In this document: positions 43,959 through 58,664 of the stretch, piece after piece
How positions within the stretch are numbered: the first letter of the stretch is position 1
How the letters are laid out: each line of letters starts with the position of its first letter
Source of the DNA: Halorubrum aethiopicum
Lineage (GTDB): Archaea; Halobacteriota; Halobacteria; Halobacteriales; Haloferacaceae
Length of the DNA: 64,000 nucleotides
Assembly (NCBI RefSeq): GCF_001542905.1
Contig: NZ_LOAJ01000001.1
Span: forward strand, 1,922,001-1,986,000
Reading direction: 5' to 3'
Program-made: the position numbers and the translations under genes
The notes under the pieces: model-generated
Seen by the model: the letters and a program-made list of their open reading frames with translations, nothing else
Databases searched by the model: none
Told to the model about the DNA's origin: nothing

Positions 43959-44498
43959 TCACCGCGAAAGCGGCATCGAGAGCCGATAGGCCGCCCACAG
44001 CTGGGCGACGGTCACGACCGCGAACGCCGCGAGCGCGCCGCTCGTCCAGAGTAAGGGATCGACCGCGCCGACGACCGGCGCGCCGAGCTGGGCGGCGAGC
44101 ACGACACACAGCGTCACGATACCGAGCAGCTGGTACAGCTCCGTCCAGGTGAACCCGTAGCCGGTCACGACGGTCATGTACCGTTCCACGTCGCGTGCGC
44201 CCCGGCACGCGCGGACCTCCTTGCGCGTGCGGTCGTACTCGACGACGCCGAGCTCGTGGAGCCGCGGCAGGTGCGTCTGGTGGAGGGAGGCGTACACGCT
44301 CTCGCGCACGCAGCGCGGCGCGGGCGACTCGCCCGTCTCGTCGGCGGCGATCGCCTCCGAGAGCTCCCTCACCGAGACGGCCCCGCCCCGCGTCCGAAGC
44401 TCCCGCAGCGCGTTCTTTCGGCGGCTGTTCGAGAGCACGTCGTGAATGACGTTCTCCGGGAGCGAGTCGGATCGGATCTGGAGTGGAATGGAGAACAC
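43959..44498 (-). CDS. DUF7344 winged-helix protein with two membrane spans
   Basis: A 179-residue protein from GTG 44498. The N-terminal 110 residues are a winged-helix DUF7344 domain (DVLSNSRRKNALRELRTRG, SVRELSEAIAADE, SVYASLHQTHLPRLHELGVV). Two spans (about 128-147 and 153-173) follow, so it is a membrane-bound DNA-binding protein. A TATATGTATGC box lies 32-42 nt upstream. It is divergent from the TasA-like series, and the shared intergenic region contains the CGGTAGG array, so I infer it is the local regulator. Confidence 0.8.
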   Translation of the reverse strand: MFSIPLQIRSDSLPENVIHDVLSNSRRKNALRELRTRGGAVSVRELSEAIAADETGESPAPRCVRESVYASLHQTHLPRLHELGVVEYDRTRKEVRACRGARDVERYMTVVTGYGFTWTELYQLLGIVTLCVVLAAQLGAPVVGAVDPLLWTSGALAAFAVVTVAQLWAAYRLSMPLSR

Positions 44499-44527
44499 CT
44501 CGTCTGAGAACGTGAAGGACGGATGAG

Positions 44528-44540
44528 GGTATATGTATGC
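44528..44540 (-). promoter_or_regulatory. TATA-like box of the DUF7344 gene
   Basis: On the minus strand GCATACATATACC is the only strongly AT-rich tract of the area. It lies about 30-42 nt upstream of the GTG at 44498, which implies a 5' leader of roughly 5-12 nt. Confidence 0.5.
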
Positions 44541-44597
44541 GCCCCGTACTTCCGTGTCACTTGTTAGCAATCGAAACCGGATCTCGGGGCGAAACCA

Positions 44598-44691
44598 CGG
44601 TAGGCGATCCCACGAGATCCGGTAGGGAGTCACAGACGGGGCGGTAGGGGGCCACGTGCGGGGCGGTAGGCACCACCACGCGGACGGTATG
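44598..44691 (+). promoter_or_regulatory. Array of four CGGTAGG boxes at exact 22-bp spacing
   Basis: CGGTAGG occurs at 44598, 44620, 44642 and 44664, each exactly 22 bp after the last; a degenerate CGGTATGG follows at 44685. The spacing is two helical turns, so the boxes lie on one face of the DNA. The 386-bp intergenic region 44499-44884 also contains CGAAACC at 44572, 44590, 44722 and 44732. No gene is seen in it. The array lies between the DUF7344 gene and the first TasA-like gene and is a candidate operator or enhancer; binding protein and effect are inferred. Confidence 0.6.
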
Positions 44692-44884
44692 GCCCGCCAT
44701 CCGCCCCTTCCGGGCGTTCTTCGAAACCGTCCGAAACCGCCGAATTCGGTCGAACGAGCGGTTAGTTCGGTCGATGGCGCGGTTCGTCGCGCCGATGGCG
44801 GCGTTAGGATCCGACGTGTCGAGTCGTAACTATCCCCCCTGCCGCTAAGGGAGGGGTACTGGCCGAGACGCCAGGGATGATCAA

Positions 44885-46222
44885 ATGGACGATAACAAAA
44901 ACAACTTCGGACTCTCGCGGCGGCAGATGCTCGGCGGCCTCGGCATGATCGGCGTGGCCTCCGCGGGCGCGGGTCTCGGAACGACGGCATACTTCAGCGA
45001 CGAGGAGGGCTTCACCGGCAACCAGCTCGAGGCCGGGACCCTCGATCTCTTGGTGGACTACGAGGCCTCCTACGACAGCGACGGCGCGGTCGAGAACATG
45101 GCCGACGTGGCGATGGGCACGCAGGACGGCGAGCCCGCGGGCATGTTCTATGATCTCGACGACGTGAAGCCGGGCGACTCCGGCCACGTGGAGTTCTGCT
45201 TCCGGATCGTGGACAACCCTTCCTACATGTGGGCGTGTGCCGACCTCTCGCAGACCGAGAACGGCATGAACGAACCCGAGATGATCGTCGACGACACGCC
45301 CGACCTGGGCGAGCTCGGCGACGCCATCGACGCACGGCTCGTCTACTGCGAGCGCGACGACGGCGAACTCATCGAGGGCGAAGAGATCGTCTCCGGCTCG
45401 CTGGTTGACGTCATCGCGGCCATCACCGGCGGCGTACCCCTCGACGGCGAGGGCATGCCCGGCATGGCGCCCGGCGACCAGGCGGAGTACGCCGACGTCG
45501 TCGAGCCCGAGGAGGGCGAGGCGTACATCACCGGCCCGTGCGTGTGCCTGTTCTGGAACGTGCCGATCGAGGTGGGCAACGAGATCCAGTCCGACACGCT
45601 GACGATGGACTTCGAGTTCCACGCGATCCAGTCGCGCCACAACGACGGGATGTACAACCCGTGCGTTCCCACCGTCACGACCCGGACCGGCGAGGGCTTC
45701 GCCAAGCAACAGGAGTTCGCCACCCAGCAGGAGACCTCCTTCGCCCGCGGCCGCTACGGTGACAACAACGGCACCGCCGGTGCCTGGGAGGTCGCGGTCG
45801 GCCCCGACGTCGGGAGCGCCGACACCGCGAACTACGCGTGGACGCCCGGAAACACGGTTCCGTTCAGCTACACCTACGATGGGAGCGGCAACGCCTCGTT
45901 CACGCTCAACGGCGCGACCGTCTCCAGCGCGATCCCCGCCCCCAGCGGGAAGCTGGCGATCACGACGAAGGCCGACGAGGCCACCGTCTCCGTCGCGAAC
46001 CTCACGCTCGACCTGGACGGCACCACCGTGGCCCTCAGCGGCCCCGACGCCGTCTCCGCGACCAACGACGGCTCCGGCCGCGAGGTCACCTACCTCGTGT
46101 TCGACACCGATGCCGCGGACGTCGCGAACGCGTTCACCGTCAGCGGCGACGTGACCGTCGACGTACAGGGCGACTACTCCGGCTCCGACGAGGGGGTCGC
46201 GTTCGACGTCAGCGTCGAATAA
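44885..46222 (+). CDS. TasA/camelysin-like secreted protein A (SipW-type signal)
   Basis: A 445-residue exported protein. The signal has a twin-arginine motif LSRRQMLGGLG (Arg12-Arg13) and ends in the SipW-type cleavage context AYFSDEEG (36-42). The TasA-like beta-sandwich (about 40-265) shows the family landmarks NQLEAGTLDL, DDVKPGDSG, GELGDAID, IVSGSLVDV, GNEIQSDTLTMDFEF and QSRHNDG. Five cysteines in the core could pair. The C-terminal 165 residues form a second beta domain (GAWEVAVGPDVG, VPFSYTYDGSGNASFTLNG) resembling a choice-of-anchor type. First gene of four tandem paralogues; a GGGA 8-11 nt before the ATG is the likely ribosome-binding site. Confidence 0.87.
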   Translation: MDDNKNNFGLSRRQMLGGLGMIGVASAGAGLGTTAYFSDEEGFTGNQLEAGTLDLLVDYEASYDSDGAVENMADVAMGTQDGEPAGMFYDLDDVKPGDSGHVEFCFRIVDNPSYMWACADLSQTENGMNEPEMIVDDTPDLGELGDAIDARLVYCERDDGELIEGEEIVSGSLVDVIAAITGGVPLDGEGMPGMAPGDQAEYADVVEPEEGEAYITGPCVCLFWNVPIEVGNEIQSDTLTMDFEFHAIQSRHNDGMYNPCVPTVTTRTGEGFAKQQEFATQQETSFARGRYGDNNGTAGAWEVAVGPDVGSADTANYAWTPGNTVPFSYTYDGSGNASFTLNGATVSSAIPAPSGKLAITTKADEATVSVANLTLDLDGTTVALSGPDAVSATNDGSGREVTYLVFDTDAADVANAFTVSGDVTVDVQGDYSGSDEGVAFDVSVE

Positions 46223-46314
46223 TCCCCGGATCGGCCGCGCGGCGTTCGTCCGGAGATCCGGGCGTTCGGCCGCGATCACGACAGCCGACGTCGGCTGTCC
46301 ACCCACTTGGCGTA

Positions 46315-46355
46315 CGACGGTTCGACTCCGTCGGTGGGAGTTTCCCTACCGGGAA
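46315..46355 (+). promoter_or_regulatory. Two-hairpin leader element, copy A
   Basis: Hairpin I is CGACGG-TTCGACT-CCGTCG (46315-46333). Downstream, TTCCC-TACC-GGGAA (46342-46355) forms hairpin II, enclosing the GGGA that would serve as Shine-Dalgarno 9 nt before the ATG at 46365. An alternative pairing GGGA-GTT-TCCC (46336-46346) would free that GGGA. Similar elements precede the next two paralogues. No TATA box lies at promoter distance, so the element is probably inside the mRNA. Confidence 0.5.
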
Positions 46356-46364
46356 TGATACACA

Positions 46365-47828
46365 ATGGACGACAAAAAGATCGGACTCTCGCGGCGCAAG
46401 ATGCTCGTCGGCCTCGGGGCGATGGGCGTCGCCTCCGCGGGCGCGGGACTCGGAACGACGGCGTACTTCAGCGACGAGGAGGGCTTCACCGGCAACCAGC
46501 TCGAGGCCGGGACCCTCGACCTCAAGCTCGACTACAAATCGACGTACCTCGGCGGCCCTGGCCGTCTGGCTGACGTTCAGTCGATGGGCTACCCGGATGC
46601 CCAGGATCTCGGCGACGGGCGGTACCTGCTCGACCAGGCTCCCAGCCCCGGTGACATGCAAGAATGGGAGAATTACGTGCAGGACGACGAGATGTTCGAC
46701 TTCTGTTCGCCCGAGGCGGACCAGTACCTCGTCAACGGTGACGGGATCCCGGTCTTCACCCTCGACGACGTGAAGCCCGGCGACTCCGGCGAGGTCACGA
46801 TCAGCATCCACATCTGTGACAACCCCGCGTACCTCTACTTCTCGGGCGAACTCACCGAGAACGCGGAGAACGGACAGACCGAGCCCGAGATGGAGGACGA
46901 GGGCGAGGACACCGACGGGATCGGCGAGCTCGCCGACGCCATCGAGGTCTGCGTCTGGTACGACGAGGACTGTGACAACGTGTACGAGCCCACCGGCACG
47001 GGCCAGCAGAACGAACTGGAGGTCGCCCTCGTCAGCGACGTCTCCGGATCGATGAGCGGCGCCCCGCTCTCGGCGCTGAAGACGGCCGCGACGAGTTTCG
47101 TGGACAACCTCTCCTCGCCGGACGAGGCCGCCGCGATCTCGTTCAGCGGCGGCGCGTCGACGGATCAGGAACTGACGACGAACTACCAGAGCGTCCAGAA
47201 CGCGATCAACAACTACACCGCGGGCGGCAGCACCTCGATCGCGGCCGGCATCAACGAGGGCGCGGACGAGCTCCTCAACGGCACCAACGCCACGCCCGGC
47301 GCGTCCAAGGTGATGATCCTGCTGAGTGACGGGAACTCCAGCGCGAGCGCCGCGACCAACGCGGCGAACGCCGCGAAGAACGCGGGCATCCGCGTCTTCA
47401 CGATCGCGCTCGGCAGCGCGAACACCTCGCTGCTCGAGAGCCTCGCCTCCAGCCCGGACGACGCCTTCGTCGCGCCGGACCCGGCCGACCTCGACACCGT
47501 CTACGCCGAGATCGCGCAGATCGTCCTCGCGGGCGAACAGAAGATCATCTCCGGCACGATGACCGAGGTCTTCGAGGCGCTCTCCGAGGGCGTCGCCCTC
47601 GACGGCAACCGCCAGGAGGCGGGTAGGCAGCCGTACCCCGGCGCGACGACCCAGTGTATCGGCTTCGAGTGGACGCTCCCCGCGGAGGTCGGAAACGAGA
47701 TCCAGAGCGACTCTGTCTCCTTCGACATCGGCCTCTACGCGGAGCAGTTCCGCCACAACGACAACCCGGACGTCTCGTTCAACGGGACGAACGTGACCAG
47801 CAACAGCACCGGAAACGTGTCCAATTAA
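46365..47828 (+). CDS. TasA-like secreted protein B with inserted vWA domain
   Basis: A 487-residue exported protein. Twin-arginine LSRRKMLVGLG (Arg10-Arg11) and AYFSDEEG (33-40) form the signal. The TasA-like sandwich is split: its first part runs to VWYDEDCDN (about 205) and its second resumes at ISGTMTEVFEAL (396) and ends with GNEIQSDSVSFDIGLYAEQ (in part). Between lies a complete vWA domain (about 217-388) with MIDAS residues Asp225, Ser227, Ser229 (DVSGSMS), Thr290 (GGSTSI) and Asp322 (LLSDGN), so metal-dependent ligand binding is likely. The C-terminus is Asn/Thr-rich with possible N-glycosylation sites. Confidence 0.88.
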   Translation: MDDKKIGLSRRKMLVGLGAMGVASAGAGLGTTAYFSDEEGFTGNQLEAGTLDLKLDYKSTYLGGPGRLADVQSMGYPDAQDLGDGRYLLDQAPSPGDMQEWENYVQDDEMFDFCSPEADQYLVNGDGIPVFTLDDVKPGDSGEVTISIHICDNPAYLYFSGELTENAENGQTEPEMEDEGEDTDGIGELADAIEVCVWYDEDCDNVYEPTGTGQQNELEVALVSDVSGSMSGAPLSALKTAATSFVDNLSSPDEAAAISFSGGASTDQELTTNYQSVQNAINNYTAGGSTSIAAGINEGADELLNGTNATPGASKVMILLSDGNSSASAATNAANAAKNAGIRVFTIALGSANTSLLESLASSPDDAFVAPDPADLDTVYAEIAQIVLAGEQKIISGTMTEVFEALSEGVALDGNRQEAGRQPYPGATTQCIGFEWTLPAEVGNEIQSDSVSFDIGLYAEQFRHNDNPDVSFNGTNVTSNSTGNVSN

Positions 47829-47921
47829 ACATTTGACACGACACATCGAGCGGGACGTCCGCTCTCTCCGAACGACACGCTCGTTCGGTTCCCGATCCGG
47901 CACCCTTCGGGGCGGCCGACG

Positions 47922-47961
47922 CGGCGGTTCGCGACCGCCGACGGGAGTTCCCCACTGGGGA
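47922..47961 (+). promoter_or_regulatory. Two-hairpin leader element, copy B
   Basis: Hairpin I is CGGCGGT-TCGCG-ACCGCCG (47922-47940), different in sequence from copies A and C but equally perfect in pairing. Hairpin II is TCCCC-ACT-GGGGA (47949-47961), which pairs the GGGGA 9 nt before the ATG at 47971. The alternative GGG-AGTT-CCC (47943-47952) is also available. The intergenic gap is 142 nt, exactly as before gene B. Confidence 0.5.
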
Positions 47962-47970
47962 CGATATACA

Positions 47971-49290
47971 ATGAACGACGATACCATCGGACTGTCGCGG
48001 CGCAAGATGCTGTTCGGACTCGGCGCGGTCGGCGTGGCCTCCGCGGGCGCGGGTCTCGGAACGACGGCGTACTTCAGCGACGAGGAGGGCTTCACCGGCA
48101 ACCAGCTCGAGGCCGGGACTCTCGACCTCTTCGTCCACGTGGACTACTCGGAGGACCAGGGGAGCTACGCGCAGTACTCCACGCCGTCCGGAACCTTCAT
48201 CCACGGCAACGTCGTCGGCGGCGGCGACGGCGAACCCCTCAGCATTCAGGTCTCCGACCTGAAGCCCGGCGACTCCGGCGAGGGGGAGTTCTGCTTCTCG
48301 ATCGTCGACAACCCCGCCTACATGTGGATGTGCGGCGAGTTGACGGCGAACGACGAGAACGGCCAGACCGAGCCCGAGACGGACGCCGACACGACCGGCG
48401 GCGACCCCGGCGAGGGCATGGGCGAGCTCGCCGACGCGATGCAGGTGACCGTCTCGTACTGTACCGCCGACGGGGAGGTCGGAAACGAGATCGTCTCCGG
48501 CTCGCTGGCTGACGTGATGCTGGCGCTTCAGGCCGGCGTCCCGCTCTCCGGCGACGGCGACGCGAGCGTGCCCCTCGACGGACGCGACCCGTTCGAGGGC
48601 GTCACCGAGGCGTTCCTCGACGACGAACCGAACGTCGCGGAGCAGTGCGTCTGCGTCGAGTGGGAGGTCCCGACGGACGTCGGCAACGAGATCCAGAGCG
48701 ACTCCGTCACCTTCGACTTCGAGTTCTACGCGGAACAGTCGCGGCACAACGACGGCACGAACAACCCGTGCGTCGACGAGGTCGTCGTCACGGCGTACGA
48801 CAACGACTGGAAGGGCCAGACGCTGGCGAACCCCACCGACGGGAACGTCTACACCAGCGTCGCCTACGGCCAGAACCAGGTCGTCCTCGGTTTCACCTTC
48901 GTCGACGACGGCGACGGCATGGACTTCCTCGACACCGCGGACTACTCCAGCACGAACCTCCCGGTCGCGGTCGACGCGGACGACGACGGCACGCACGACT
49001 GGCAGCTCATCTGGCAGCCGAACGCGGGCCTCCCGGACGCCCCCTTCGGCTACGTGGAGAACACCGGCGGCAGCTACGGCGCGGCTCAGTCGCTTCCGGC
49101 CGGCTTCTCCGCGCAGAAGGTCGGGAACACGATCCTGTTCGGCGTCCCGCGCAGCGAGATCGCCTCGACGTTCCGCCTGCTCGCCTACGGCAGCACCGGC
49201 GGCGAGGGACCGATCGCGAAGGTCAACGCCGACCCCGCGGTCGGACCGGACTTCTACGACAGCAGCGACGCGGTCGTGTTCAGCGAGTGA
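47971..49290 (+). CDS. TasA/camelysin-like secreted protein C
   Basis: A 439-residue exported protein: signal LSRRKMLFGLG plus AYFSDEEG (34-41), TasA-like sandwich with NQLEAGTLDL, SDLKPGDSGEGEFCF, GELADAMQ, IVSGSLADVML, DVGNEIQSDSVTFDFEFYAE and QSRHNDG (quoted in pieces). Cysteine contexts FCFSI, WMCGEL, SYCTAD and QCVCVEW match protein A. A C-terminal beta domain of about 170 residues follows (VVTAYDNDWKGQTLANP, LVLGFTFVDDGDG-like). ATG 47971 is chosen; a frame extending upstream is only the structured leader. Confidence 0.87.
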   Translation: MNDDTIGLSRRKMLFGLGAVGVASAGAGLGTTAYFSDEEGFTGNQLEAGTLDLFVHVDYSEDQGSYAQYSTPSGTFIHGNVVGGGDGEPLSIQVSDLKPGDSGEGEFCFSIVDNPAYMWMCGELTANDENGQTEPETDADTTGGDPGEGMGELADAMQVTVSYCTADGEVGNEIVSGSLADVMLALQAGVPLSGDGDASVPLDGRDPFEGVTEAFLDDEPNVAEQCVCVEWEVPTDVGNEIQSDSVTFDFEFYAEQSRHNDGTNNPCVDEVVVTAYDNDWKGQTLANPTDGNVYTSVAYGQNQVVLGFTFVDDGDGMDFLDTADYSSTNLPVAVDADDDGTHDWQLIWQPNAGLPDAPFGYVENTGGSYGAAQSLPAGFSAQKVGNTILFGVPRSEIASTFRLLAYGSTGGEGPIAKVNADPAVGPDFYDSSDAVVFSE

Positions 49291-49373
49291 CGCCGGCCGG
49301 GTGACCCGCCTCGGGTCCACTCGTCCGACGCGCTGACCGCCACCCACGTCGGGCCCGCGAGGGCGGCCGACGA

Positions 49374-49410
49374 CGACGGTTCGACTCCGTCGGTGGGACT
49401 CCCTTCGGGG
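49374..49410 (+). promoter_or_regulatory. Two-hairpin leader element, copy C
   Basis: Hairpin I (49374-49392) is identical to that of copy A, within a 26-nt identical stretch (49373-49398). Hairpin II is TCCC-TTC-GGGG (49400-49410, with one G-U pair), ending 10 nt before the ATG at 49421. The alternative GGG-ACT-CCC (49395-49403) competes. Confidence 0.48.
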
Positions 49411-49420
49411 ATTCACAATC

Positions 49421-51127
49421 ATGACAGACAACGATTCAATCGACACGATCGGACTCTCGCGGCGCAAGATGCTGGCGGGCCTCGGTGCGGTGGGCATCGC
49501 CTCCGCGGGTGCGGGACTGGGTACCACGGCGTACTTCAGCGACGAGGAGGGGTTCGAGGGCAACACGCTCACCGCCGGGAACCTCGACCTGCTCGTCGAC
49601 TGGCAACAGACCTACGACTTCGGCGAGGGCCACCAGTTCGTCAGCGCCCACCCCGACCACGACGGCGACGGCGAACAGTCCGTCGAGATCGACGGGGAAG
49701 TCCTCAGATACAGCGACTTCCCGGACGAGGAGGACGAGGACAGCAACGGCGCGAACATCCCGGACCTCGACTGTGCGGCCATCCCGCCGCTCTCGGAGGC
49801 GGACTTCGGTACCGACCCCGTCACCGGCGAGGAGATGGACACGCTGGTGCAGCTCACCGACGTGAAGCCCGGCGACTCCGGCGAGATCACCTTCTCGCTC
49901 CACCTGTGTGACAACCCCGGCTACATCTGGATGCAGGCGTCCAACGTCGCCGACGAGGGCGGGGTCGGAACCGAACCCGAACTACTGGTGGATCCCGACA
50001 ACCTCGGCGACCTCGGCGACGCCATCCAGGCGACGCTCTGGTACGACGAGGACTGCGACAACGTGTACGACGGCGCGGAGCCTGTCGACATCATGCTGAC
50101 GCTGGACTTCTCCGGCTCCATGCTGTACGACCAGTACGGCGGCGTGGTCAGTAGCGACCCGATCCAGATCAACGGGACGACCTACGGGGAGACGACGAAG
50201 ATCGATCTCGTCGAACTCGGAACCCGACAGTTCGTCGACTACCTCCAGTCGCAGGGGTCGGACGTTCAGGTCGGCGTGGCCTACTTCGACGGCGAAGGAA
50301 GCAACGACACCGAGCCGCGGACCGGCGTCCTCCAGCCGCTGACCACCGACCTTTCGGTCGTCGACGGCGCGCTCTCGGGGCTCCGGCAGAAGCTCGCGAA
50401 CCTCGTGACCGGTGGCCCCGGCTCGACGCCGTTCGACGGTGACGGGAACCCGAACCCGTTCTCGAACGCGAGCGGCATCGCGACGGGTACCTACATCGGC
50501 GAAGGCGTCGACGACGCTCAGGACGAACTCGCCGCGAACGGTCGCCCGAACGCCGAGAAGCGTAACATCGTTCTCTCGGACGGCGAGTCGTTCAACGGCA
50601 CGGGAAGCACGCAGTTCTCCTCGCCGACCGCGGCCGCGGACGACGCGCGGGCGGCCTCACCGGCCCCCGCCACGGACGTCTACACGATCAACGTCGACGG
50701 CAGCGCCAGCACGCTCCAGGCGATGGCCGGGCCGGCCGGCGGATCGGGCGGCGACTCGGCGTACTTCAACGACGTCGACGACCCGCTGAACATCCCCACG
50801 GTGTTCGGCAACCTCGCGGCCCAGACCGGCCAGGAGAAGATCATCATGGAGGACTCGCTCGGGAACGTCTTGGACGCGCTCGCCGACGGGAACGGCATCC
50901 CGCTCGACGGCAACCGCGCGACGCCGTACGACGAGCTCGCCGACCCGGCCGACGATTCGAACCGAGACGCGTTCCGCGGCGACGGCGTGATGCACTGTGT
51001 CGCGCTTTCGTGGGAGCTGCCGTTCGAGGTCGGAAACGAGGTCCAAGGCGACACGCTCGGCTTCGATCTCGGGTTCTACACCGAACAGGAGCGACACAAC
51101 GACGGCTCCGGGCCGACGCCGGCCTGA
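49421..51127 (+). CDS. TasA-like secreted protein D with inserted vWA domain
   Basis: A 568-residue exported protein. Twin-arginine GLSRRKMLAGLG (Arg14-Arg15), AYFSDEEG (38-45), then an acidic stretch (70-135) and TDVKPGDSGEITFSLHLCDN. The vWA domain (about 221-470) sits between LWYDEDCDN and the resumed sandwich (KIIMEDSLGNVLDALADG), i.e. at the same point as in protein B. MIDAS residues are Asp229, Ser231, Ser233 (LDFSGSM), Thr357 and Asp387 (LSDGES). The sandwich ends with VGNEVQGDTLGFDLGFYTEQ and RHNDG. Last gene before a strong hairpin. Confidence 0.87.
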   Translation: MTDNDSIDTIGLSRRKMLAGLGAVGIASAGAGLGTTAYFSDEEGFEGNTLTAGNLDLLVDWQQTYDFGEGHQFVSAHPDHDGDGEQSVEIDGEVLRYSDFPDEEDEDSNGANIPDLDCAAIPPLSEADFGTDPVTGEEMDTLVQLTDVKPGDSGEITFSLHLCDNPGYIWMQASNVADEGGVGTEPELLVDPDNLGDLGDAIQATLWYDEDCDNVYDGAEPVDIMLTLDFSGSMLYDQYGGVVSSDPIQINGTTYGETTKIDLVELGTRQFVDYLQSQGSDVQVGVAYFDGEGSNDTEPRTGVLQPLTTDLSVVDGALSGLRQKLANLVTGGPGSTPFDGDGNPNPFSNASGIATGTYIGEGVDDAQDELAANGRPNAEKRNIVLSDGESFNGTGSTQFSSPTAAADDARAASPAPATDVYTINVDGSASTLQAMAGPAGGSGGDSAYFNDVDDPLNIPTVFGNLAAQTGQEKIIMEDSLGNVLDALADGNGIPLDGNRATPYDELADPADDSNRDAFRGDGVMHCVALSWELPFEVGNEVQGDTLGFDLGFYTEQERHNDGSGPTPA

Positions 51128-51137
51128 GCCGCTGAAA

Positions 51138-51167
51138 CCCCGGCGTTCCGAACGTCGGAACGTGGGG
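51138..51167 (+). terminator. Strong hairpin after the first tandem series
   Basis: CCCC-GG-CGTTCCGA-ACG-TCGGAACG-T-GGGG: an 8-bp perfect stem with a 3-nt loop, extended by four G-C pairs after a small bulge. It lies 10 nt after the stop of protein D and probably ends or stabilises the mRNA of the first operon. No T-run follows, so the termination role is inferred. Confidence 0.55.
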
Positions 51168-51382
51168 TCGGGAGCCACACGGTACGCCACCGCGCATCAA
51201 CGGGCGGATTCTCCGCTCGGTGACGGCGGTTCGAGCGCCCACGGACGAGGGCGTCGGCGTACGTCGAACGTCGACGGGGCGGCGGCGTACGCCGACGAGC
51301 ACGACCACGGTTCGGCGTCGAACCGGGTCGCCGAGTGGCCGGTTAGGCACACCCTGCCGGTCGTTCAATGACTCAATCAACG

Positions 51383-51425
51383 CGGTTCGGTGTCCGAACC
51401 GTTTGGGTAGGAGGCGCATACATAC
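51383..51425 (+). promoter_or_regulatory. 19-bp palindrome and TATA-like box before the second operon
   Basis: CGGTTCGG-TGT-CCGAACCG (51383-51401) is a perfect 8-bp inverted repeat. A GGTAGG (51406-51411) and an AT-rich GCATACATACG (51417-51426 approx.) follow, about 65 nt before the ATG at 51488, implying a leader of about 35-40 nt. A CGGTTAGGCAC at 51340 resembles the fourth CGGTAGGCAC box of the first promoter. The 360-bp gap 51128-51487 contains no gene. Confidence 0.5.
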
Positions 51426-51487
51426 GTACCGAGAACGCGTGGAGACTATCGACGAACCGGCCGTCCGGAGCCGACCACGGGACACGA

Positions 51488-52321
51488 ATGACGAAACGAG
51501 ACACACACCTGACTCGGCGGCAAGCACTCGCGGGCATCGGAGCCGTGGGCTTCGCGGCCGCCGGGATGGCCGTCGGAACCCGGTCGACGGGCAGTTGGAA
51601 CCAGTACACGAGCTATACCTACGCGCAGTCGAACGTTCCGACCAGCCTGCTGGTCGGCTGGCGGAGCAGATACAACGACCAGCTCGTCCGGGAGAGCCCG
51701 ACCGACGAGGTCGCGGACGTCGACGAGATCGGCGCGCCGGTCCGTCTCATCGACCAGGACAACGTCCTCCCGATGGACACGGGCTCGACGAGCGTCGGTC
51801 TGCGGATCGACGATCAGGGCCAGAACGTCCCGGACGGCGTCCGGGTGTGGATGAAGATCGATCCGGAGATCGGCACCGATCCGGCGAGCCAGGCGCTCGC
51901 GGAGCGGATCGAGGTCTCCGTTCGCTACGACACCGGGTTCCTCGGCGTCGGCGGCTGTGCCGGCGCGGAGAACCTCGAGAGCTTCCCGAGTTTCCCGACC
52001 TTCGGTAACGGGATCTTCTCGGGGACCCTCGCGGAGCTCGACGGCCACGATCTGACCGAGGGGATCGAGGTCGATCCCAGCATCCTCGACAACGGCTGCC
52101 TACAACCTGACGAGAGCCGCTGTCTCGCGTTTAACTGGAGGTTCCCGATCGGCGAGGGCGGCAACGCCGGGAAGGGCGGATCCGTCGACTTCGACGTGTC
52201 GTTTTACGCCGTCGACTGCGGATGGACCGGCAACCCGTTCGCGGATGCGGTGCCGGACCGCGAGGACTCGGAGGGATCGGCTGACTCGACGGACTCGACG
52301 GACTCGGAGGTGGCGGAATGA
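51488..52321 (+). CDS. TasA-like exported protein E, no FSD motif
   Basis: A 277-residue protein. The signal has a twin-arginine LTRRQALAGIG (Arg10-Arg11) but lacks YFSDEE, so the cleavage route may differ. The sandwich keeps the family marks: NVPTSLLVGW, LIDQDNVLPMDTGSTSVG, a GIFSGTLAEL strand, CLAFNWRFP and GGSVDFDVSFYAVDCG. The C-terminus is Ser/Asp/Glu-rich. The ATG at 51488 is chosen because only it yields a proper signal; an upstream in-frame ATG at 51368 falls before the presumed TATA box. The next gene overlaps by ATGA. Confidence 0.78.
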   Translation: MTKRDTHLTRRQALAGIGAVGFAAAGMAVGTRSTGSWNQYTSYTYAQSNVPTSLLVGWRSRYNDQLVRESPTDEVADVDEIGAPVRLIDQDNVLPMDTGSTSVGLRIDDQGQNVPDGVRVWMKIDPEIGTDPASQALAERIEVSVRYDTGFLGVGGCAGAENLESFPSFPTFGNGIFSGTLAELDGHDLTEGIEVDPSILDNGCLQPDESRCLAFNWRFPIGEGGNAGKGGSVDFDVSFYAVDCGWTGNPFADAVPDREDSEGSADSTDSTDSEVAE

Positions 52322-53811
52322 CCGCCGACGGGAGCGGACGAGGGGGCTCCGGCCTCGCCGACCTCAGCCGTCGCCGGCTCCTCGCGGGGCTCGGCGGATT
52401 AGGCGCGATCGGTGCCGCGAGCGGCGCGGGAACGTTCGCGTACTTCTCCGACGAGGAGACGCTGCCGCGCAACGAGATCGGTGCCGGCGAGGTTGAACTC
52501 GACGTGTCGTGTTCGGATTCGAACGGAGGCAACTGTACCGTCTCGAACGGTACCGTGAGCTACACGCCCGAGAATCCGATCGACCGCGGCGACTCCGGGT
52601 ACGTGACGTTCGACGTCTCGGTCCGGACGAACCCGGCGAGGCTCTGGTTCGCGACGACCTGCCCGCCGACGCGGGACCCGCTCGGCAACGCGCTGGAGGT
52701 TTCGCTCTACATAGAAGGCGACGAGGAGTTCTCCGGGTCGCTCTCGGAACTCCGCCGCGAGTTCGCCGGCGGACTTCGGATCGACGACCTCGACGGCGGT
52801 GCGTGTCTCGATCCGGAGGGAGACGCGCTCGAGATCGAACTCGCCTGGGAGCTTCCCGAGGACGCTCCGGCCGCCGCGGCCGGGCAGACGACCGCGTTCG
52901 AGTTCCAGCTCTACACCGAGCAGTGCCGGCACGTCTCCGAGGACGACGCCGCGGGATCGAACCCCTACGCGGTGTTCGGACCGTGTGACGAACCCGAACC
53001 GAAGTGTGTGGACTGCGACGACGGCGGAAAGGCGGACGGGATCGACGGAAACGTCGACATCAGCGACTCGAACGATATCTCGACGTGGTTGACCATCGAC
53101 GAGGGTCCGCTCGCCGGCGACGCGTACCTCTTCGTCACCGACGTCGAGTACAAGGACGGCAACGAGGCCGTCGGCGTCGGCTTCGAACTCGTGGACGAGA
53201 ACGGCGACCCGGCCGGACGGCTCTGTGAGGTCCGGATCAAGGGCGGAAACGACACGAAGCCGTACCCGATCGAGCCGCCGAGCAACGACACGGGCGAGAT
53301 ACTGTACTCGCCCGAGAACAACGGCGGGAACCCCGCCGGAATCAGCAACATCCAGATCGACGTCTGTGTGGACGACGACGGCGGAGACGACCACGACGAT
53401 CCGGGCGACTGCGAGTGCGGCGGAAACGTCCGCTACCGCGACCTGACGTTCCGATACGACGGCGGATCCGACGCCACGATCCGGGCCACCACGCAGCGGA
53501 CGGGCGGCGGAAACGAGGTCGTGTTCGAGGACGCGACGATCGCGTCCGGTGGAACGTTCACCGCCGACGGCAGCGACGTCCCCCAAACGTGGGGGAACGT
53601 CGGAACGAGCCTCGGACAGAACACGACGATCTCGATCGTCGACGGCGGCGACGACGGTGCCTCGGAGAGCGTGGAGATCCACACCAGCTGCTCGGAGGTG
53701 CTCGCGATCGGAGACACGTTCGGCTCCGACGGATCCGGAGGAACGCTCTACGAACTCGTCGGCGGAACGTTCACCGACGAGAATCCGCTCTGCGACTCGG
53801 AGGACCTATAA
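52318..53811 (+). CDS. TasA-like exported protein F with Cys-rich C-terminal domain
   Basis: A 497-residue protein. Signal LSRRRLLAGLGG (Arg18-20) and AYFSDEETL (41-49). The sandwich has RNEIGAGEVELDVSC, RGDSGYVTFDV, FSGSLSELRREF, LEIELAWELPED and FEFQLYTEQCRH. From about residue 225 an extra domain begins with KCVDCDDG, followed by a beta-rich region (DVEYKDGNEAVGVGFELVD, CECGGNVRYRDLTFRYDGG). The stop overlaps the start of the signal-peptidase gene by 1 nt (TAATG), a strong sign of coupled expression. Confidence 0.84.
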   Translation: MTADGSGRGGSGLADLSRRRLLAGLGGLGAIGAASGAGTFAYFSDEETLPRNEIGAGEVELDVSCSDSNGGNCTVSNGTVSYTPENPIDRGDSGYVTFDVSVRTNPARLWFATTCPPTRDPLGNALEVSLYIEGDEEFSGSLSELRREFAGGLRIDDLDGGACLDPEGDALEIELAWELPEDAPAAAAGQTTAFEFQLYTEQCRHVSEDDAAGSNPYAVFGPCDEPEPKCVDCDDGGKADGIDGNVDISDSNDISTWLTIDEGPLAGDAYLFVTDVEYKDGNEAVGVGFELVDENGDPAGRLCEVRIKGGNDTKPYPIEPPSNDTGEILYSPENNGGNPAGISNIQIDVCVDDDGGDDHDDPGDCECGGNVRYRDLTFRYDGGSDATIRATTQRTGGGNEVVFEDATIASGGTFTADGSDVPQTWGNVGTSLGQNTTISIVDGGDDGASESVEIHTSCSEVLAIGDTFGSDGSGGTLYELVGGTFTDENPLCDSEDL

Positions 53812-55004
53812 TGAACTCACCTATCACACTCAAACGATTTGCCAACCTGCTCGGGATCGCCCTGTTGATCGCGGTCGTCGCGCCCTTCGTGGTGTACGCG
53901 GTGCCGGCGGTCGTCGGGGCGGAGTACAGCTTCGTCGTCCTGACGGCGAGCATGACGCCCGCGATCGCCCCCGGCGACGTGGTGATCGTCGACGAACGCG
54001 ATCCGGCGGCGATCGGCGAGGGCGACGTGATCACGTTCGTCCGCGGCGACAGCGAGGTGCCGGTGACCCACCGCGTGATCGGGGTGACGGAATCGGGCGG
54101 CGAGGTCGCCTTCGAGACGAAGGGCGACGCCAATGAGGACCCGGACTCCGCGCTGGTGCCCGGATCGAACGTCCTCGGCGCGGTAGCGTTCTCGATCCCG
54201 TACATCGGGTACGTGGTCCAGTTCACCGACTCCGCGACGGGCTTCACCCTGCTCGTCGTCCTGCCGTTCGCCCTGCTCGCGCTCTCGGAGGTCTGGAGCC
54301 TCTACCGCTCCCGAACCGGGAGCGGCGAGGGCTCGACGGCGGCCGACCCGGACGCGGTCGACGCCGACGCGAACGCGGAAGCGATGGACTCGGAAGCGAT
54401 TGACACGGAGAAGACGGCCGCGACTGCCGCGGCCGCGACCGGATCCACCGAAACCGAGTCCGACGCGGCTGACGAGCCGGGATTCGTCGTGACGAACCGG
54501 ACGGTGGAGGGAGCCGTGGGCGTCCTCCTGGCGTTCGTCCCGTACGCGGCGTACACGGCGTACACGCTCCAGACCGCCCTGACCATCGCGGTCGCGGTCG
54601 GAACCGGCATGACGCTCCTGATGGCGGCCGTCCTCCTCGTCACGGCCGGAGACGGCGAGGGATCGTCCGACGAAGCGTCCCGCTCGACGGACGGTGACGG
54701 AGACGACGGTGACGGCGACCGCGGCGACGACGGAGGTCTCGACGCCGACCGCGACGCGCCCGCCGAGGGCGACGACGCCGGAACGGACGCCGGCGACGAG
54801 GACCTCGACGGCCACGAGGACGACCGCGTCGAAGGACCGAGTGGAATCGACGACGGGAATCCCATGGGGATCTTCGAGCGGCCCGTGATCGCGTCCGCCA
54901 CGGATGGCGGATCGGAGGCGGTCGTCGAGGCCGACGAGACTGACGAAATCGTCGAGGCCGACGAGATCCCCGAGTCCGCCAAGGCCGACGAGGTGGGACG
55001 ATGA
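53811..55004 (+). CDS. Signal peptidase I of SipW/Sec11 (Ser-His) type with C-terminal extension
   Basis: A 397-residue membrane peptidase. Span 1 (about 12-33) precedes the catalytic Ser47 in TASMTPAIAPGD. The second catalytic residue is His87 in PVTHRVIG, as in archaeal/eukaryotic Sec11 and Bacillus SipW, instead of the bacterial lysine; KGDANEDPD (105-112) supplies the acidic residue. A second span follows near 135-160. Unusually, two more spans (about 232-275) and a 120-residue acidic tail are appended. The one-base overlap with protein F and the SipW-type signals of its neighbours suggest they are its substrates. Confidence 0.88.
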   Translation: MNSPITLKRFANLLGIALLIAVVAPFVVYAVPAVVGAEYSFVVLTASMTPAIAPGDVVIVDERDPAAIGEGDVITFVRGDSEVPVTHRVIGVTESGGEVAFETKGDANEDPDSALVPGSNVLGAVAFSIPYIGYVVQFTDSATGFTLLVVLPFALLALSEVWSLYRSRTGSGEGSTAADPDAVDADANAEAMDSEAIDTEKTAATAAAATGSTETESDAADEPGFVVTNRTVEGAVGVLLAFVPYAAYTAYTLQTALTIAVAVGTGMTLLMAAVLLVTAGDGEGSSDEASRSTDGDGDDGDGDRGDDGGLDADRDAPAEGDDAGTDAGDEDLDGHEDDRVEGPSGIDDGNPMGIFERPVIASATDGGSEAVVEADETDEIVEADEIPESAKADEVGR

Positions 55005-56020
55005 CCCACCCCGCGTCGGTCGTGATGGTCGCCGTCCTCGTGTTGCTCGCGGGGTTCGGCGGCGGAGCCGGGACGCTCGCGGTGTTCTCCGACGAGGTCA
55101 CGGTCCAGGGGAACTTCGCGAGCGTCGACGAGTTCGAGCAGCTCGAATCCGCGGAGAACGGATCACAGACGGACGACTCGTCGGGCGAGACCGAGACGCT
55201 TGAGAACGACGAGACCGCTCCCGGTGGGGGCAACGGAAACGGTGCCGACAAGGGTGAAAAGAAGGGCGTGGGCCAGGGCGACGGCGTCGGGCTCACCCGA
55301 ACCTCCGTCGACGGGGACGGTGAGACGCCCGAGATCGACGGCGGATCCGACGGAGACGACGGTAAGAGCGTCGACGGCGACGCCGATAGTGACGCCGCCG
55401 ACGCCGACGGCGACACCGACGACGGAGCCGCCGGCGACGACGAACCGGCGAAGGAGACGGACTCCGAGCCGAAGTCGGACCAACCGACGAAGCCGGAGAA
55501 CGACACGGAGAGCGGCGAGAACGGCGACGTCGGGAACGGCGAGAAGACGGCCGGAAGCGACGAGGATGCCGCCGGTGACGGCGCCGAAGACGGATCCGAT
55601 GAGGCCGACGGCGACGACGCCGACGACGCTGGCGACGCCGACGAAAGCGGCGAAAACGACGAGACGGACGGAGAGAACGGTGACGACGAGACGGACGGCA
55701 CCGACGACGCGCAGAACCCTGACACCGAGGACGGCTCCGACGGGGCCGACGGCGGGGCCGACGAGAACGGTGATGACGGGACGACGGACACCGAAGGCGG
55801 TGAGACCGAGGAGATCGAAACCACCAGCGGCGACGGTGACGGGAGTAACGGCGACGAGAGCGGCGCCGGCGAAACGGAGACGTCCGAAGACGGGAACGTC
55901 GACGGTGACGACGGCGACGCGGACGAGACCGGCGACGACGCGAATGACGACGGAACCGGCGACGACACCGGCGGCGACGCCGGCACCGACACCGGAGGTG
56001 ACGATGGGCGATCGGCGTGA
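55001..56020 (+). CDS. Sec/SipW-type exported protein with a 300-residue acidic tail
   Basis: A 339-residue protein. A hydrophobic N-terminus without twin arginines (MTHPASVVMVAVLVLLAGFG) ends in TLAVFSDEVTVQGN, the SipW-type context, so this member would use Sec, not Tat. After residue about 45 the sequence is almost only Asp, Glu, Gly, Thr, Ser, Asn and Ala, with no fold expected. It overlaps the peptidase gene by 4 bp and the next small gene by 17 bp. It could be an unstructured linker, surface polyanion or cation-binding component; this is inference. Confidence 0.75.
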   Translation: MTHPASVVMVAVLVLLAGFGGGAGTLAVFSDEVTVQGNFASVDEFEQLESAENGSQTDDSSGETETLENDETAPGGGNGNGADKGEKKGVGQGDGVGLTRTSVDGDGETPEIDGGSDGDDGKSVDGDADSDAADADGDTDDGAAGDDEPAKETDSEPKSDQPTKPENDTESGENGDVGNGEKTAGSDEDAAGDGAEDGSDEADGDDADDAGDADESGENDETDGENGDDETDGTDDAQNPDTEDGSDGADGGADENGDDGTTDTEGGETEEIETTSGDGDGSNGDESGAGETETSEDGNVDGDDGDADETGDDANDDGTGDDTGGDAGTDTGGDDGRSA

Positions 56021-56195
56021 GGAACGCTGCGTTCCGGAGGGTCGCCGAACCGCCTTACCCCGGCGGAACGGTCACCGACCCGAACGACTGTCGGCGCTCC
56101 GGACGCGACCGTGGATCACGAAGCGCCGCGTGCTCCTGGCGCTCTTCGCCGGGCTCCTGGCGCTCTTCGGCTACGGACTCCTTTTCGAGTTCTGA
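56004..56195 (+). CDS. 63-residue basic single-span protein
   Basis: The frame from ATG 56004 overlaps the end of the acidic protein by 17 bp and encodes an Arg-rich N-terminus (MGDRREERCVPEGRRTALPR) and a single span RRVLLALFAGLLALFGYGLL at the C-terminus. Charge bias is opposite to that of the preceding protein, so it may bind it. Alternative frames here are less protein-like. Last gene of the second operon. Function unknown. Confidence 0.5.
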   Translation: MGDRREERCVPEGRRTALPRRNGHRPERLSALRTRPWITKRRVLLALFAGLLALFGYGLLFEF

Positions 56196-56216
56196 GGCGG
56201 GTTCCTTCCGCTCGAT

Positions 56217-56921
56217 TCACTCCGCGAGCAGCGCGTCGAGTTCGCGACGGACCCGATCGCGCCGGTCGTCGAGGACGGCGAACTGCTCGCCTCGAAGCCG
56301 CTCCAGCCAGCCCAGCAGCCGGGCGGCCCACGCGAGCTTCCGTTCCTTCATCGGGCCCACGTCCGGGTCGTCGAAGTTCCAGCCCGGGAAGGTCAGCCGT
56401 CCGGCACCGGCGTGGTCCGCGAGGAACGCGGCGCGGTCGCCGTCGGTGAAGCCACCGACGTTGCGGACCGGGCCGACGGGGGCCGCCTGCGTCGTCGTCA
56501 GGGTGTGGTCGGCGTCGAAGCGCGGGAGCCACTCGCGGACCGCGGGGACGTTGTCGCCGTGGGCGTGCGCCACGACCGGCACGCCGCGCGCGGTCAGTTC
56601 GACCGCGGTCTCGGGGTTCTTGTCGAGGTCGGTGACCAGGCAGTCGACGGCGACGCCCGCCTCGAGGAGGACGTCGGCCGCCGTCGACGCGGCGACGACG
56701 ACGTCGGCCTCGCGGGCGAGGCGGATCTCCTCGTCCTCGCGGAGACGCGGCGCGCCCCCCGCGACGGCGACGGTCCGGCCCTCCCAGCCGTCGAACCGCG
56801 AGAGGTCGAACGGCGTCGACAGCGACGCGGCGACGTCGCGGGCCTCCTCGTCGGCGTGGCGGTCGAACCCGAAGTCGGCCAGGATCGCCTCGTAGACGGG
56901 TTCGAACGTCTCGAAGTTCAC
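56217..56921 (-). CDS. mptE: MptE-like 6-hydroxymethylpterin diphosphokinase
   Basis: A 234-residue protein of the DUF115/MptE family, making 6-hydroxymethyl-7,8-dihydropterin diphosphate for folate or methanopterin synthesis. Visible marks are VNFETFEPVYEAILADFGFD at the start, VAVAGGAP, VDCLVTDLDKN, VVAHAHGDN and the LTFPGWNFDDPD region. The GTG at 56921 is chosen since it gives the usual length and family N-terminus. A dihydropteroate synthase gene lies 178 nt upstream on the same strand, so two consecutive steps are encoded together. Confidence 0.9.
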   Translation of the reverse strand: MNFETFEPVYEAILADFGFDRHADEEARDVAASLSTPFDLSRFDGWEGRTVAVAGGAPRLREDEEIRLAREADVVVAASTAADVLLEAGVAVDCLVTDLDKNPETAVELTARGVPVVAHAHGDNVPAVREWLPRFDADHTLTTTQAAPVGPVRNVGGFTDGDRAAFLADHAGAGRLTFPGWNFDDPDVGPMKERKLAWAARLLGWLERLRGEQFAVLDDRRDRVRRELDALLAE

Positions 56922-57098
56922 GGGATCACCTCCGGCGTCGCGTCGGACGGTCGGGGGACCGACCCGTCGGGACGGCGCTGCCGCTCGCGGTGGTGAATAT
57001 GGTATGGGCCGAAGTGGCACAGAGTACCCCTACCCGCGTGCCCCTTCGGCGTCCGGTTGAAGCGTTGTCCACACGACGGCATAAACTTTCTCTTACTT

Positions 57099-58265
57099 CT
57101 AGGTGTCGCCGATCGTCGAGAGAGCGGCGTCGAGCGCCTCCGAAACGCCGTGAACGGCCGCCACGGCCGACGAGAGACCGTCGGCCGTACCGACGAGGAC
57201 GCCTCGGCTCGTCTCTCCCCTCTCGCCGTCTCCGTCGTCTCCCCGACCGACCGCGAAGGCGGCGTCGCCCTCGTTCGTGGCCGCCCGGAGCGCGCCGACG
57301 GCCTCCGGCGACAGCCCCGACAGCTCGTAGGTGTGGACGACGGTCTCGTCGGCGACCTCGCGGGAGACGCCGAGTCGGTCGAGGTGGCGCTCGGCCTCTC
57401 GGACCGTGGTCACGTCCAGTTCCTCGACCGCCACTGGGCCGTCGCGGCGCGGGCGTCTCCTGGCGAACGCCTCGCCGATCAGCGCCGCGTCCCGCGTCTC
57501 GGCCACGTCGTGGGTGCGGATCACGTGCGCGCCGCGCTCGACCGCCATCGAGGTGGCCGCCAGCGAGACGGGGAGCGCCTCCTCGGTGGTGCGGCCGGCG
57601 ATGGTCTTGAGGAAGCTCTTGCGGTTGATCGAGACGAGGAGCGGCCGGCCGTAGCCGCGGAACTCCCGGAGCCGGCGGAACGTCTCGCGGTCGTCGGCGT
57701 GGGTCTTGGCCTCCGACCAGCCGCCGAAGGCGGGATCGAGGATCGTCTTGTCGGTGAAGCCGTTCATCGAGAGCGCGTCGTAGATGTCGTCGACGTCCTC
57801 GATTGCGCCCGGGCGTTCGAGGTCCGGCGGCGAGGCCATCTTCGAGACGGCGGCGTCGTGTTCGCGGCAGACGCGGGGCATCTCCGGGTCGGCGAACCCG
57901 CAGACGTCGTTGACCATGTCGAACCCGCGCGAGAGCGCCTCGTCGGCGACCTCGTGGTACCGCGTCTCGATCGACCAGACCGCGTCGCCCGAGGTGGATT
58001 CGAGCGTCTCGACCGCGACGTCGAGCCGTTCCAGCTCCTCCTCCGCGGAGAGCACGTCGAGGTCCTTGTTCGCGGACTCGAGCCCCACGTCGACGATGTC
58101 GGCCCCCTCGCCGATCAGCTCCTCGTCGACGTACTCGGCGGCCTCGCCGGGGTCGTCGTACACGCTCGGGTCGTACGGCGACTCCGCCGAGACGTTCAAC
58201 ACGCCCATGATCCGGGGCGGGTGGTCGTCGCCGATCCCGAGGCCCGCGGCGTCCACGTTTCGCAT
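57099..58265 (-). CDS. Dihydropteroate synthase
   Basis: A 388-residue TIM-barrel enzyme joining p-aminobenzoate to hydroxymethyldihydropterin diphosphate. Motifs: MGVLNVSAESPYD (N-terminal pterin-site loop), DIVDVGLESAN, MVNDVCGFAD, ILDPAFGGWSEAKTH, VSINRKSFLKTI and GAHVIRTHDVAETRDA. A C-terminal extension of about 100 residues is of unknown role. The ATG at 58265 lies just downstream of the dispersed repeat. With mptE it forms the folate pathway pair. Confidence 0.93.
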   Translation of the reverse strand: MRNVDAAGLGIGDDHPPRIMGVLNVSAESPYDPSVYDDPGEAAEYVDEELIGEGADIVDVGLESANKDLDVLSAEEELERLDVAVETLESTSGDAVWSIETRYHEVADEALSRGFDMVNDVCGFADPEMPRVCREHDAAVSKMASPPDLERPGAIEDVDDIYDALSMNGFTDKTILDPAFGGWSEAKTHADDRETFRRLREFRGYGRPLLVSINRKSFLKTIAGRTTEEALPVSLAATSMAVERGAHVIRTHDVAETRDAALIGEAFARRRPRRDGPVAVEELDVTTVREAERHLDRLGVSREVADETVVHTYELSGLSPEAVGALRAATNEGDAAFAVGRGDDGDGERGETSRGVLVGTADGLSSAVAAVHGVSEALDAALSTIGDT

Positions 58266-58337
58266 ACCGGATCGAGGGTCGCGACTCTTAAAGCCCGCCC
58301 GGAACCGGCGGGCGAGGGGACCGACGATCCGCCGCAA

Positions 58338-58664
58338 CGACCGATTGCGGTGGCGCGCCGGTGAGCGGGTCGGAGGCCCGCGAACCGCCCGCGAGGGACG
58401 CGACGAACGGTGAAACCGTGAGTCGCGAGGCTGGGGAGGCGTGAGGTGCGGTCGCGGTTGGGTGGGACTCGAAGGGGCAGTCGCGAGGGCGAAGGTGGCC
58501 GAAGTAAGCACTGGAAGGAGTGAGAGGAGCGAACGACTGAAGCGCGCAGCGAGGCCCCCGAGTCCTTGCGACTGGGGTTTTGGAGGTGTGCATCGCAGTC
58601 ACGTTTTCAGCAGCGTACAGCCGAGCGACTGGGGCTTTGGACGTGTTCACCGCGTCAGCAACGA
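58338..58664 (+). repeat. Dispersed ~0.3-kb repeat, copy 2
   Basis: It matches 43552-43828 in the same orientation over its whole length, with about 50 extra bp. The excess arises from an internal duplication: GCGACTGGGG-TTTTGGAGGTGTGCATCGC (from 58568) and GCGACTGGGG-CTTTGGACGTGTTCACCGC (from 58625, period about 58 bp). The gap 58266-58721 has no gene other than this element. Confidence 0.9.

Follow-up and report, generated by a model that had tools for sequence, protein, structure and literature searches.

What does a halophilic archaeon make with a string of exported proteins that share a beta-sandwich and come with a signal peptidase of their own, and why are their genes set apart by spacers that look like pieces of tRNA? 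The question is raised by a locus at positions 43959 to 56195 of a 64,000-nucleotide stretch of the genome of Halorubrum aethiopicum (assembly GCF_001542905.1, contig NZ_LOAJ01000001.1, positions 1,922,001 to 1,986,000), henceforth the window. The answer that we propose, with a probability of about one half, is that tRNA-like elements between cistrons serve haloarchaea as a systematic punctuation code for operons of fibre proteins exported by the twin-arginine translocation (Tat) system – TasA-like proteins as well as DUF1102 proteins. Enzymes of tRNA processing would divide the transcript into messages of one gene each and thereby set the ratios of the subunits, in the way of the tRNA punctuation of mitochondria, and the operon of the window would code for a new TasA-type fibre studded with VWA domains. 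Taken apart, the components of this proposal fare somewhat better than the whole: it seems to us rather probable that the locus is a TasA-type surface fibre or adhesin system, nearly as probable that the tRNA-like elements are processed in the transcript, and a little better than an even bet that both are true.

A preliminary description, made from the DNA letters, had read the locus as a self-contained surface-protein locus of the SipW/TasA kind. Every gene that it listed is present, on the plus strand from 44885 to 56195, with a DUF7344 gene divergent from the others. Its six proteins with a TasA pattern, its Ser-His signal peptidase, its acidic-tail protein and its basic single-span protein were all recovered, while the start of the third subunit, placed at 47833, had to be corrected to 47971. 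The list of genes stood. Not noticed were the VWA inserts, the twin arginines in the signals, the variation between alleles and the tRNA-like elements of the spacers. Gene spacing suggests two blocks. The first consists of four subunit genes (P0002 to P0005), separated by spacers of 130-142 nt. The second, located 360 nt further on, comprises P0006, P0007, the peptidase gene, P0009 and the gene of the basic protein, which overlap by 1 to 17 nt. The subunits, the peptidase and its acidic partner are the following:

44885..46222, plus strand: subunit P0002, with a Tat and SipW signal, a TasA-like core and a C-terminal choice-of-anchor W domain (TIGR04088; NF041928, E=7e-24)
46365..47828, plus strand: subunit P0003, with a Tat and SipW signal and a TasA-like core into which a VWA domain is inserted
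47022..47504, plus strand: the VWA domain of P0003, residues 220-380, with the residues DVSGS, T and D of the metal-ion-dependent adhesion site (MIDAS) present (PF00092, E=3e-25)
47971..49290, plus strand: subunit P0004, with a Tat and SipW signal, a TasA-like core and a C-terminal extension
49421..51127, plus strand: subunit P0005, with a Tat and SipW signal and a TasA-like core into which a divergent VWA domain is inserted (about 50090-50740)
51488..52321, plus strand: subunit P0006, a small beta-sandwich with a twin-arginine signal that has no SipW box (AF2 model, pLDDT 74.5; PDB match 8aur)
52318..53811, plus strand: subunit P0007, with a Tat and SipW signal, a TasA-like core and a C-terminal DUF7467 domain (PF24269, E=7e-13; TIGR04088)
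53811..55004, plus strand: P0008, a SipW-like or archaeal signal peptidase I with a second hydrophobic region and an acidic tail (TIGR02228, E=5e-33)
55001..56020, plus strand: P0009, with a SipW-type signal devoid of twin arginine, a donor-strand-like start and a long acidic tail; a conserved partner of the peptidase

Could this be a chance assemblage? A scan of named genomes gave 65 loci, and the set retained for comparison consists of 60 haloarchaeal loci that each have two or more subunit genes; the window and its paralogue are among them. In this set a divergent DUF7344 gene lies directly upstream of the first subunit gene in 56 loci, a SipW-like peptidase is found in 54 and at least one VWA subunit in 56. 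Relatives are present in 140 of 291 good Halobacteria genomes and in 50 of 77 genera, with the same gene order in most of the loci examined. This recurrence, together with the shared order, excludes chance: as judged by sequence comparison, this is one conserved locus. Conserved synteny also gives good support to the earlier claim that the locus has a dedicated peptidase and a dedicated regulator.

The spacers of the first block hold the most unexpected feature of the locus. Comparison of the spacers brought out a hairpin that resembles the T-arm of a tRNA, with the loop TTCGACT. The full element has an acceptor-like stem of 7 bp, a bulge that is about 7-16 nt long and usually comprises GG, and a T-arm of 6 bp. 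In most copies a short hairpin, CCCC..GGGG, follows beside the start codon. A covariance model, R1, was built solely from the spacers of fibre loci; with it, and with the predicted fold, the window shows:

46300..46340, plus strand: tRNA-like element 1, with an acceptor-like stem, a bulge containing GG, a 6-bp T-arm and the loop TTCGACT (R1, 56.8 bits, E=1e-9 in the window)
46341..46364, plus strand: a short hairpin TTCCC..GGGAA over the presumed ribosome-binding sequence, just 5' of the start codon (predicted fold; a CCCC..GGGG pattern of this kind is found in most copies)
47922..47940, plus strand: in the spacer of the second and third subunit genes, a degenerate version of the T-arm hairpin, CGGCGG-TTCGCGA-CCGCCG (partial R1 match, E=3.4, not significant alone)
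49352..49399, plus strand: tRNA-like element 2, with a longer bulge (R1, 33.9 bits, E=8e-5 in the window)

Do these sequences fold as RNA? For 147 candidates, the loop and the position were the sole criteria of choice, whatever the pairing. The T-stem pairs at all five inner positions in 69 of them, against a mean of 22.5 and a maximum of 32 after re-dealing of the 3' strands; long acceptor stems are likewise above this control. In a curated set, 9 of the 13 pairs change on both sides, a figure equalled by none of 500 shuffles, and among 106 matches of the model this is the case for 11 of the 13. By the way they were put together, both of these sets favour the structure. The re-dealing test is the fairer control, because its candidates were not selected for pairing. 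Region 44300-56300 gave no meaningful match to a known Rfam family. Real tRNA genes are not involved: ARAGORN finds a single tRNA in the window, far from the locus. The same program calls six spacer elements of other loci tRNAs (L063, L065, L026, L037, L048). We read these calls as annotation artefacts created by the spacer element, and automated annotation may hold false tRNAs at such places.

The placement of the element is specific. Its T-arm motif is found upstream of 93 of 314 subunit genes, as against 9 of 838 other genes; the element itself stands before a later subunit gene in 83 cases out of 133 and before a first gene in 3 out of 56, and it is absent upstream of all 54 peptidase genes. 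It usually ends about 20 nt 5' of the start codon. In the 3.3 Mb genome of H. aethiopicum there are four R1 matches at E<=0.01, all of them before subunit genes of its two loci, and matches were obtained in 67 of 194 Halobacteria genomes. The 30 high-scoring loci, 29 of which come from other genomes, have a same-strand gene closely upstream in 30 cases out of 30 and a twin-arginine exported protein downstream in 27, DUF1102 proteins among them. As the model that ranked these loci had been trained on spacers of fibre genes, they are not a fully independent sample. Tandem arrays of DUF1102 or Taf-like genes carry the same spacer elements (L119, L120, L125, L130, L131).

A link with stable RNA comes from two weaker R1 matches (L135 1075-1118 and L129 1852-1894), which end 1-2 nt before the 5S rRNA defined by Rfam. 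In Haloferax volcanii, it is at a tRNA-like structure that tRNase Z makes the 5' end of 5S rRNA (PMC3296008), and t-elements placed on both sides of a crRNA in Haloferax led to processed RNA in vivo, for which RNase P and tRNase Z are held responsible (PMC4326828). The spacers of the fibre loci have the hallmarks of t-elements, that is, an acceptor-like stem and a T-arm with covariation, and they share a model with the t-element of 5S rRNA. In both cases the structure ends at the RNA to be released. Here, by contrast, the elements lie between protein genes of an exported-fibre array, and their cleavage is predicted. It is mainly because a model of fibre spacers recovers the counterpart of a proven 5S substrate that we prefer processing to translational control or to recombination. 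The elements might also stay uncut, as structured leaders that tune translation or as a landing site for a tRNA-modifying enzyme or some other protein; their distance to the start codon and the hairpin that covers a ribosome-binding-like sequence would fit such a role. Yet one would expect the first gene to have such a switch of translation as well, and the element is found there so rarely. All of the 30 top loci lie between same-strand genes, and R1 also finds the proven 5S processing element. We hold this alternative to be rather unlikely.

What do the genes of the locus encode? The test of the fold came from P0006, the most divergent subunit. A search with its sequence against PDB and Pfam gave no match. 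Its AF2 model has a single PDB match at E<=0.001 among 350,542 chains, the TasA fibre 8aur (E=7e-4, probability 1.00), so that the SipW/TasA reading survives, though with TM-scores of 0.34 and 0.40. A viral fold was considered for this protein and set aside, as the viral fold library yielded no convincing match. Among archaeal fibres, AbpX (9sj2) is a sub-threshold profile match of the core. Some core members weakly match the NCBIfam families TasA and TafA, the latter at E<=0.01 in 6 of 54. A TasA-like fold is likely, short of proof.

The export signals are of a composite type. Of 306 subunit open reading frames, 286 have a twin arginine ahead of their hydrophobic stretch, the exceptions being mostly acidic partners of the P0009 type and miscalled starts. 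In the subunits with a SipW signal, the SipW box comes directly after this twin-arginine and hydrophobic part; subunits of the P0006 type keep the twin arginine and lack the box. In line with the five SipW-type signals reported earlier, TIGR04088 is above its curated cut-off in five of the six TasA-pattern proteins, and it matches all 54 core homologues at E<=0.01. The acidic protein scores 18.4 bits against this model, just under the 19-bit cut-off, and 20.4 bits for the same place in a genome-wide search. The peptidase has the expected Ser (ASMTP), His (VTHR) and Asp (GDANED) motifs; it is above the cut-off of TIGR02228, and matches the SipW model NF046067 with E=6e-32 yet below that model's own cut-off. 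In nearly all of 54 loci, an acidic or similar open reading frame with a SipW signal overlaps the end of the peptidase gene, with an Archaeoglobus locus as the clear exception. These signals point to export by Tat, which would be followed by cutting by the local peptidase. Family-model scans of the window proteins found no match to TapA, and in the subunits no C-terminal anchor could be recognised.

The VWA domains are not simply appended. In the model of P0003 the insert sits between strand 194-199 and strand 393-398 of the TasA-like core. The fold and the residues D-x-S-x-S, T and D place this insert among VWA domains, and its structure matches in PDB include integrin I domains and the pilus adhesins SpaC and Mfa5. 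P0005 carries a second, divergent insert. In a set of 92 VWA proteins, the window's own two included, the domain follows the N-terminal and middle TasA motifs in all 92 and precedes the C-terminal motif in 89. Every one of the 92 retains the MIDAS motif D-x-[ST]-x-S. Mfa5 of Porphyromonas and SpaC of Lactobacillus are tip adhesins that likewise carry a VWA domain with its metal site on a fimbrial subunit; here, however, it interrupts a TasA-like core, and each locus has one to three subunits of this kind. The nearest named relative is Halorubrum halodurans, with 95% for P0003. A separate feature of many P0003-type proteins is the abundance of N-glycosylation sequons in their C-terminal tails (window 47780-47828, L020-L049 orthologues); P0003 has four in its last 40 residues.

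A fibre, matrix or adhesion role is plausible, and its working might be sketched as follows. The subunits would fold in the cytoplasm and leave it by Tat. The local peptidase would then cut at the SipW box, exposing an N-terminal strand, and subunits could join by donor-strand complementation, as in TasA and in archaeal bundling pili; this mode of assembly is carried over by analogy from TasA (PMC9674648). The acidic protein P0009 may be a TapA-like starter or anchor, and the VWA-bearing subunits could bind ligands or neighbours through their metal site, in the manner of pilus tip adhesins. At the RNA level, tRNase Z, perhaps with RNase P, would cut the polycistronic transcript at the tRNA-like elements. 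Each subunit message would then begin with the short hairpin at the ribosome-binding site, which could set subunit ratios. The tapA-sipW-tasA operon of Bacillus subtilis is alike in its SipW-type signals, its dedicated SipW-like peptidase, its TasA-like sandwich and a partner whose N-terminus is similar, here likened to TapA by analogy. It differs in that the signals here are of the Tat rather than the Sec type, and in that we find several subunits, inserted VWA domains, a DUF7344 protein in place of SinR control, and intergenic RNA elements.

A number of observations weigh against this scenario. The match of P0006 to 8aur is modest, with 13% identity besides its TM-scores, and the same model obtains a match of similar E-value in the viral library, with an unconvincing fold. 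The core profile aligns with TasA over most of its length, below significance (E about 0.1). Most of the comparison loci were retrieved via their TasA-like genes. On the RNA side, the element between subunits 2 and 3 is degenerate and about 38% of later subunit genes have no recognisable element. Alignments A6 and A7 favour structure by construction, the former having been picked for pairing, which inflates pair counts. The folding energies of single elements are unexceptional in such GC-rich DNA (z -0.3 to -2.7); the case rests on covariation because single-sequence folding energy is not discriminating. Finally, the fibre, its secretion, the specificity of the peptidase and RNA cleavage are all predictions drawn from sequence.

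Secreted or surface adhesins, or matrix proteins that do not polymerise, could also account for the protein part, their likeness to TasA being that of a shared beta-sandwich and their SipW signals serving just for routing. The low TM-score and the extra C-terminal domains of several subunits would be natural for such proteins, and polymerisation is here predicted from genes alone. Fibre formation is not known for every member of the camelysin/TasA superfamily, which also counts in favour of this explanation. It is at odds with the conserved multi-subunit arrays, endowed with a dedicated peptidase and a partner as in tapA-sipW-tasA (PMC9674648), with the subunits' having no recognised C-terminal anchor, and with a best fold match that is specifically the fibre form. 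We regard it as possible but unlikely, on a par with uncut leaders.

The TasA-type fibre, if such it is, would be variable. At one chromosomal site of Halorubrum, bordered by conserved genes of 80-100% identity, the first subunit occurs in three types with 41-58% identity; the alleles of P0006 and of the peptidase group differently from the first subunit. Halorubrum ezzemoulense provides what is probably another sighting of this locus: a 2024 pan-genome paper described its Islands 4 and 5 as mutually exclusive 'homeocassettes' that encode VWA proteins together with a peptidase and adjoin a core 'Peptidase S24', with adhesion or signalling proposed and a function unknown there (PMC11078007). 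The peptidase and the VWA proteins, the adjoining core peptidase and the alternative alleles resemble those of our locus, with which we infer the islands to be identical. A copy on a megaplasmid of H. ezzemoulense (L139, NZ_CP034941.1 481587-500978) is close to a recombinase and an IS6 transposase. Such mosaics invite a different explanation of the spacers, namely that repeated tRNA-like DNA serves recombination, the subunit genes being swapped as cassettes. The assortment of alleles, the exclusive cassettes and the neighbouring recombinase all speak for it. Covariation in both helices is more simply explained by the folding of RNA, and recombination leaves aside the tight distance to the start codon and the presence of the element at 5S rRNA; we deem it quite improbable that exchange of DNA is what the elements are for.

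Two further loci differ in their gene content. The own genome of H. aethiopicum harbours a second locus (C1:2197382-2203134; L009 7382-13134) with a DUF7344 gene, three TasA-like genes, one of them with a VWA domain, and spacer elements. It has no signal peptidase and is presumably served by that of the window; four DUF7344 genes lie in and beside it, three of them after it. In an Archaeoglobus metagenome-assembled genome (L079), four TasA-like genes accompany a signal peptidase, with Sec-like signals and neither VWA domain nor twin arginine.

Does the locus belong to a known kind of surface structure? A type IV pilus or an archaellum was rejected, the locus proteins having no matching families (pilus ATPase, membrane platform). 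The Abp fibres of Pyrobaculum and Pyrodictium are TasA-related archaeal fibres assembled by donor strands, and the resemblance of the window proteins to them falls short of significance. Inserted VWA domains and SipW signals with a twin arginine are not known for Abp. Closer at hand are the recently named haloarchaeal Taf fimbriae (NCBIfam TafA, TafC, TafE; DUF1102; PDB 9p0a), of which the locus might be a branch, hence known in kind. Both have twin-arginine signals – pilin 9p0a has a similar start – and DUF1102 proteins whose genes share the tRNA-like spacers match TafE or TafA, below cut-off, as do the few core members noted above for TafA. These are nevertheless other sequence families: no window protein matched any Taf model, the matches of relatives are far below curated cut-offs, and DUF1102-type genes have neither a YFSDEE-type box nor a visible VWA domain. 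We find membership in the Taf branch doubtful, slightly more so than the absence of polymerisation. The earlier statement that no characterised haloarchaeal system has such a composition holds for this gene set, and has to be qualified by the Tat-type Taf families, by pilin 9p0a and by the probable pan-genome sighting. The TasA fibre family and t-elements are known kinds; in the literature searched, their combination, the insertion of VWA domains and the systematic placement of t-elements between exported fibre genes are undescribed.

About half of the sampled Halobacteria species have relatives of these proteins, which public annotation labels just 'SipW-dependent signal', 'vWA domain' or 'hypothetical'. 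If our proposal is true, the surface of halophilic archaea gains a TasA-type fibre with integrin-like domains, one that is probably variable and could affect adhesion, biofilms and the attachment of viruses. The spacer elements open a wider question, namely whether enzymes of tRNA processing also divide the protein-coding operons of archaea. The prediction is precise, with one cut site at the 3' edge of each short element, and the enzymes and reporters exist in Haloferax volcanii.

The remaining features of the locus are its putative regulator, the region between the divergent starts and the last gene of the second block:

43959..44498, minus strand: DUF7344 winged-helix protein with two C-terminal hydrophobic segments, a divergent putative regulator (PF24035, E=6e-26)
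44499..44884, no strand assigned: intergenic region between the divergent starts, with presumed promoters (by position)
56004..56195, plus strand: basic single-span protein of 63 aa, kept in a subset of loci (tblastn)

The divergent winged-helix protein of the preliminary description is this DUF7344 protein; the start of its open reading frame at 44990, which would overlap the next gene, is not likely, and comparison with orthologues of 187-203 aa makes GTG 44498 the probable one. No papers on DUF7344 were found. The basic protein has tblastn matches of 46-86% identity in six loci (L053, L056, L052, L060, L054, L067) and weaker ones in others. Downstream, on the minus strand, the genes at 56217-57020 and 57099-58511 are housekeeping-like, probably belonging to pterin and folate metabolism by the appearance of their sequences.

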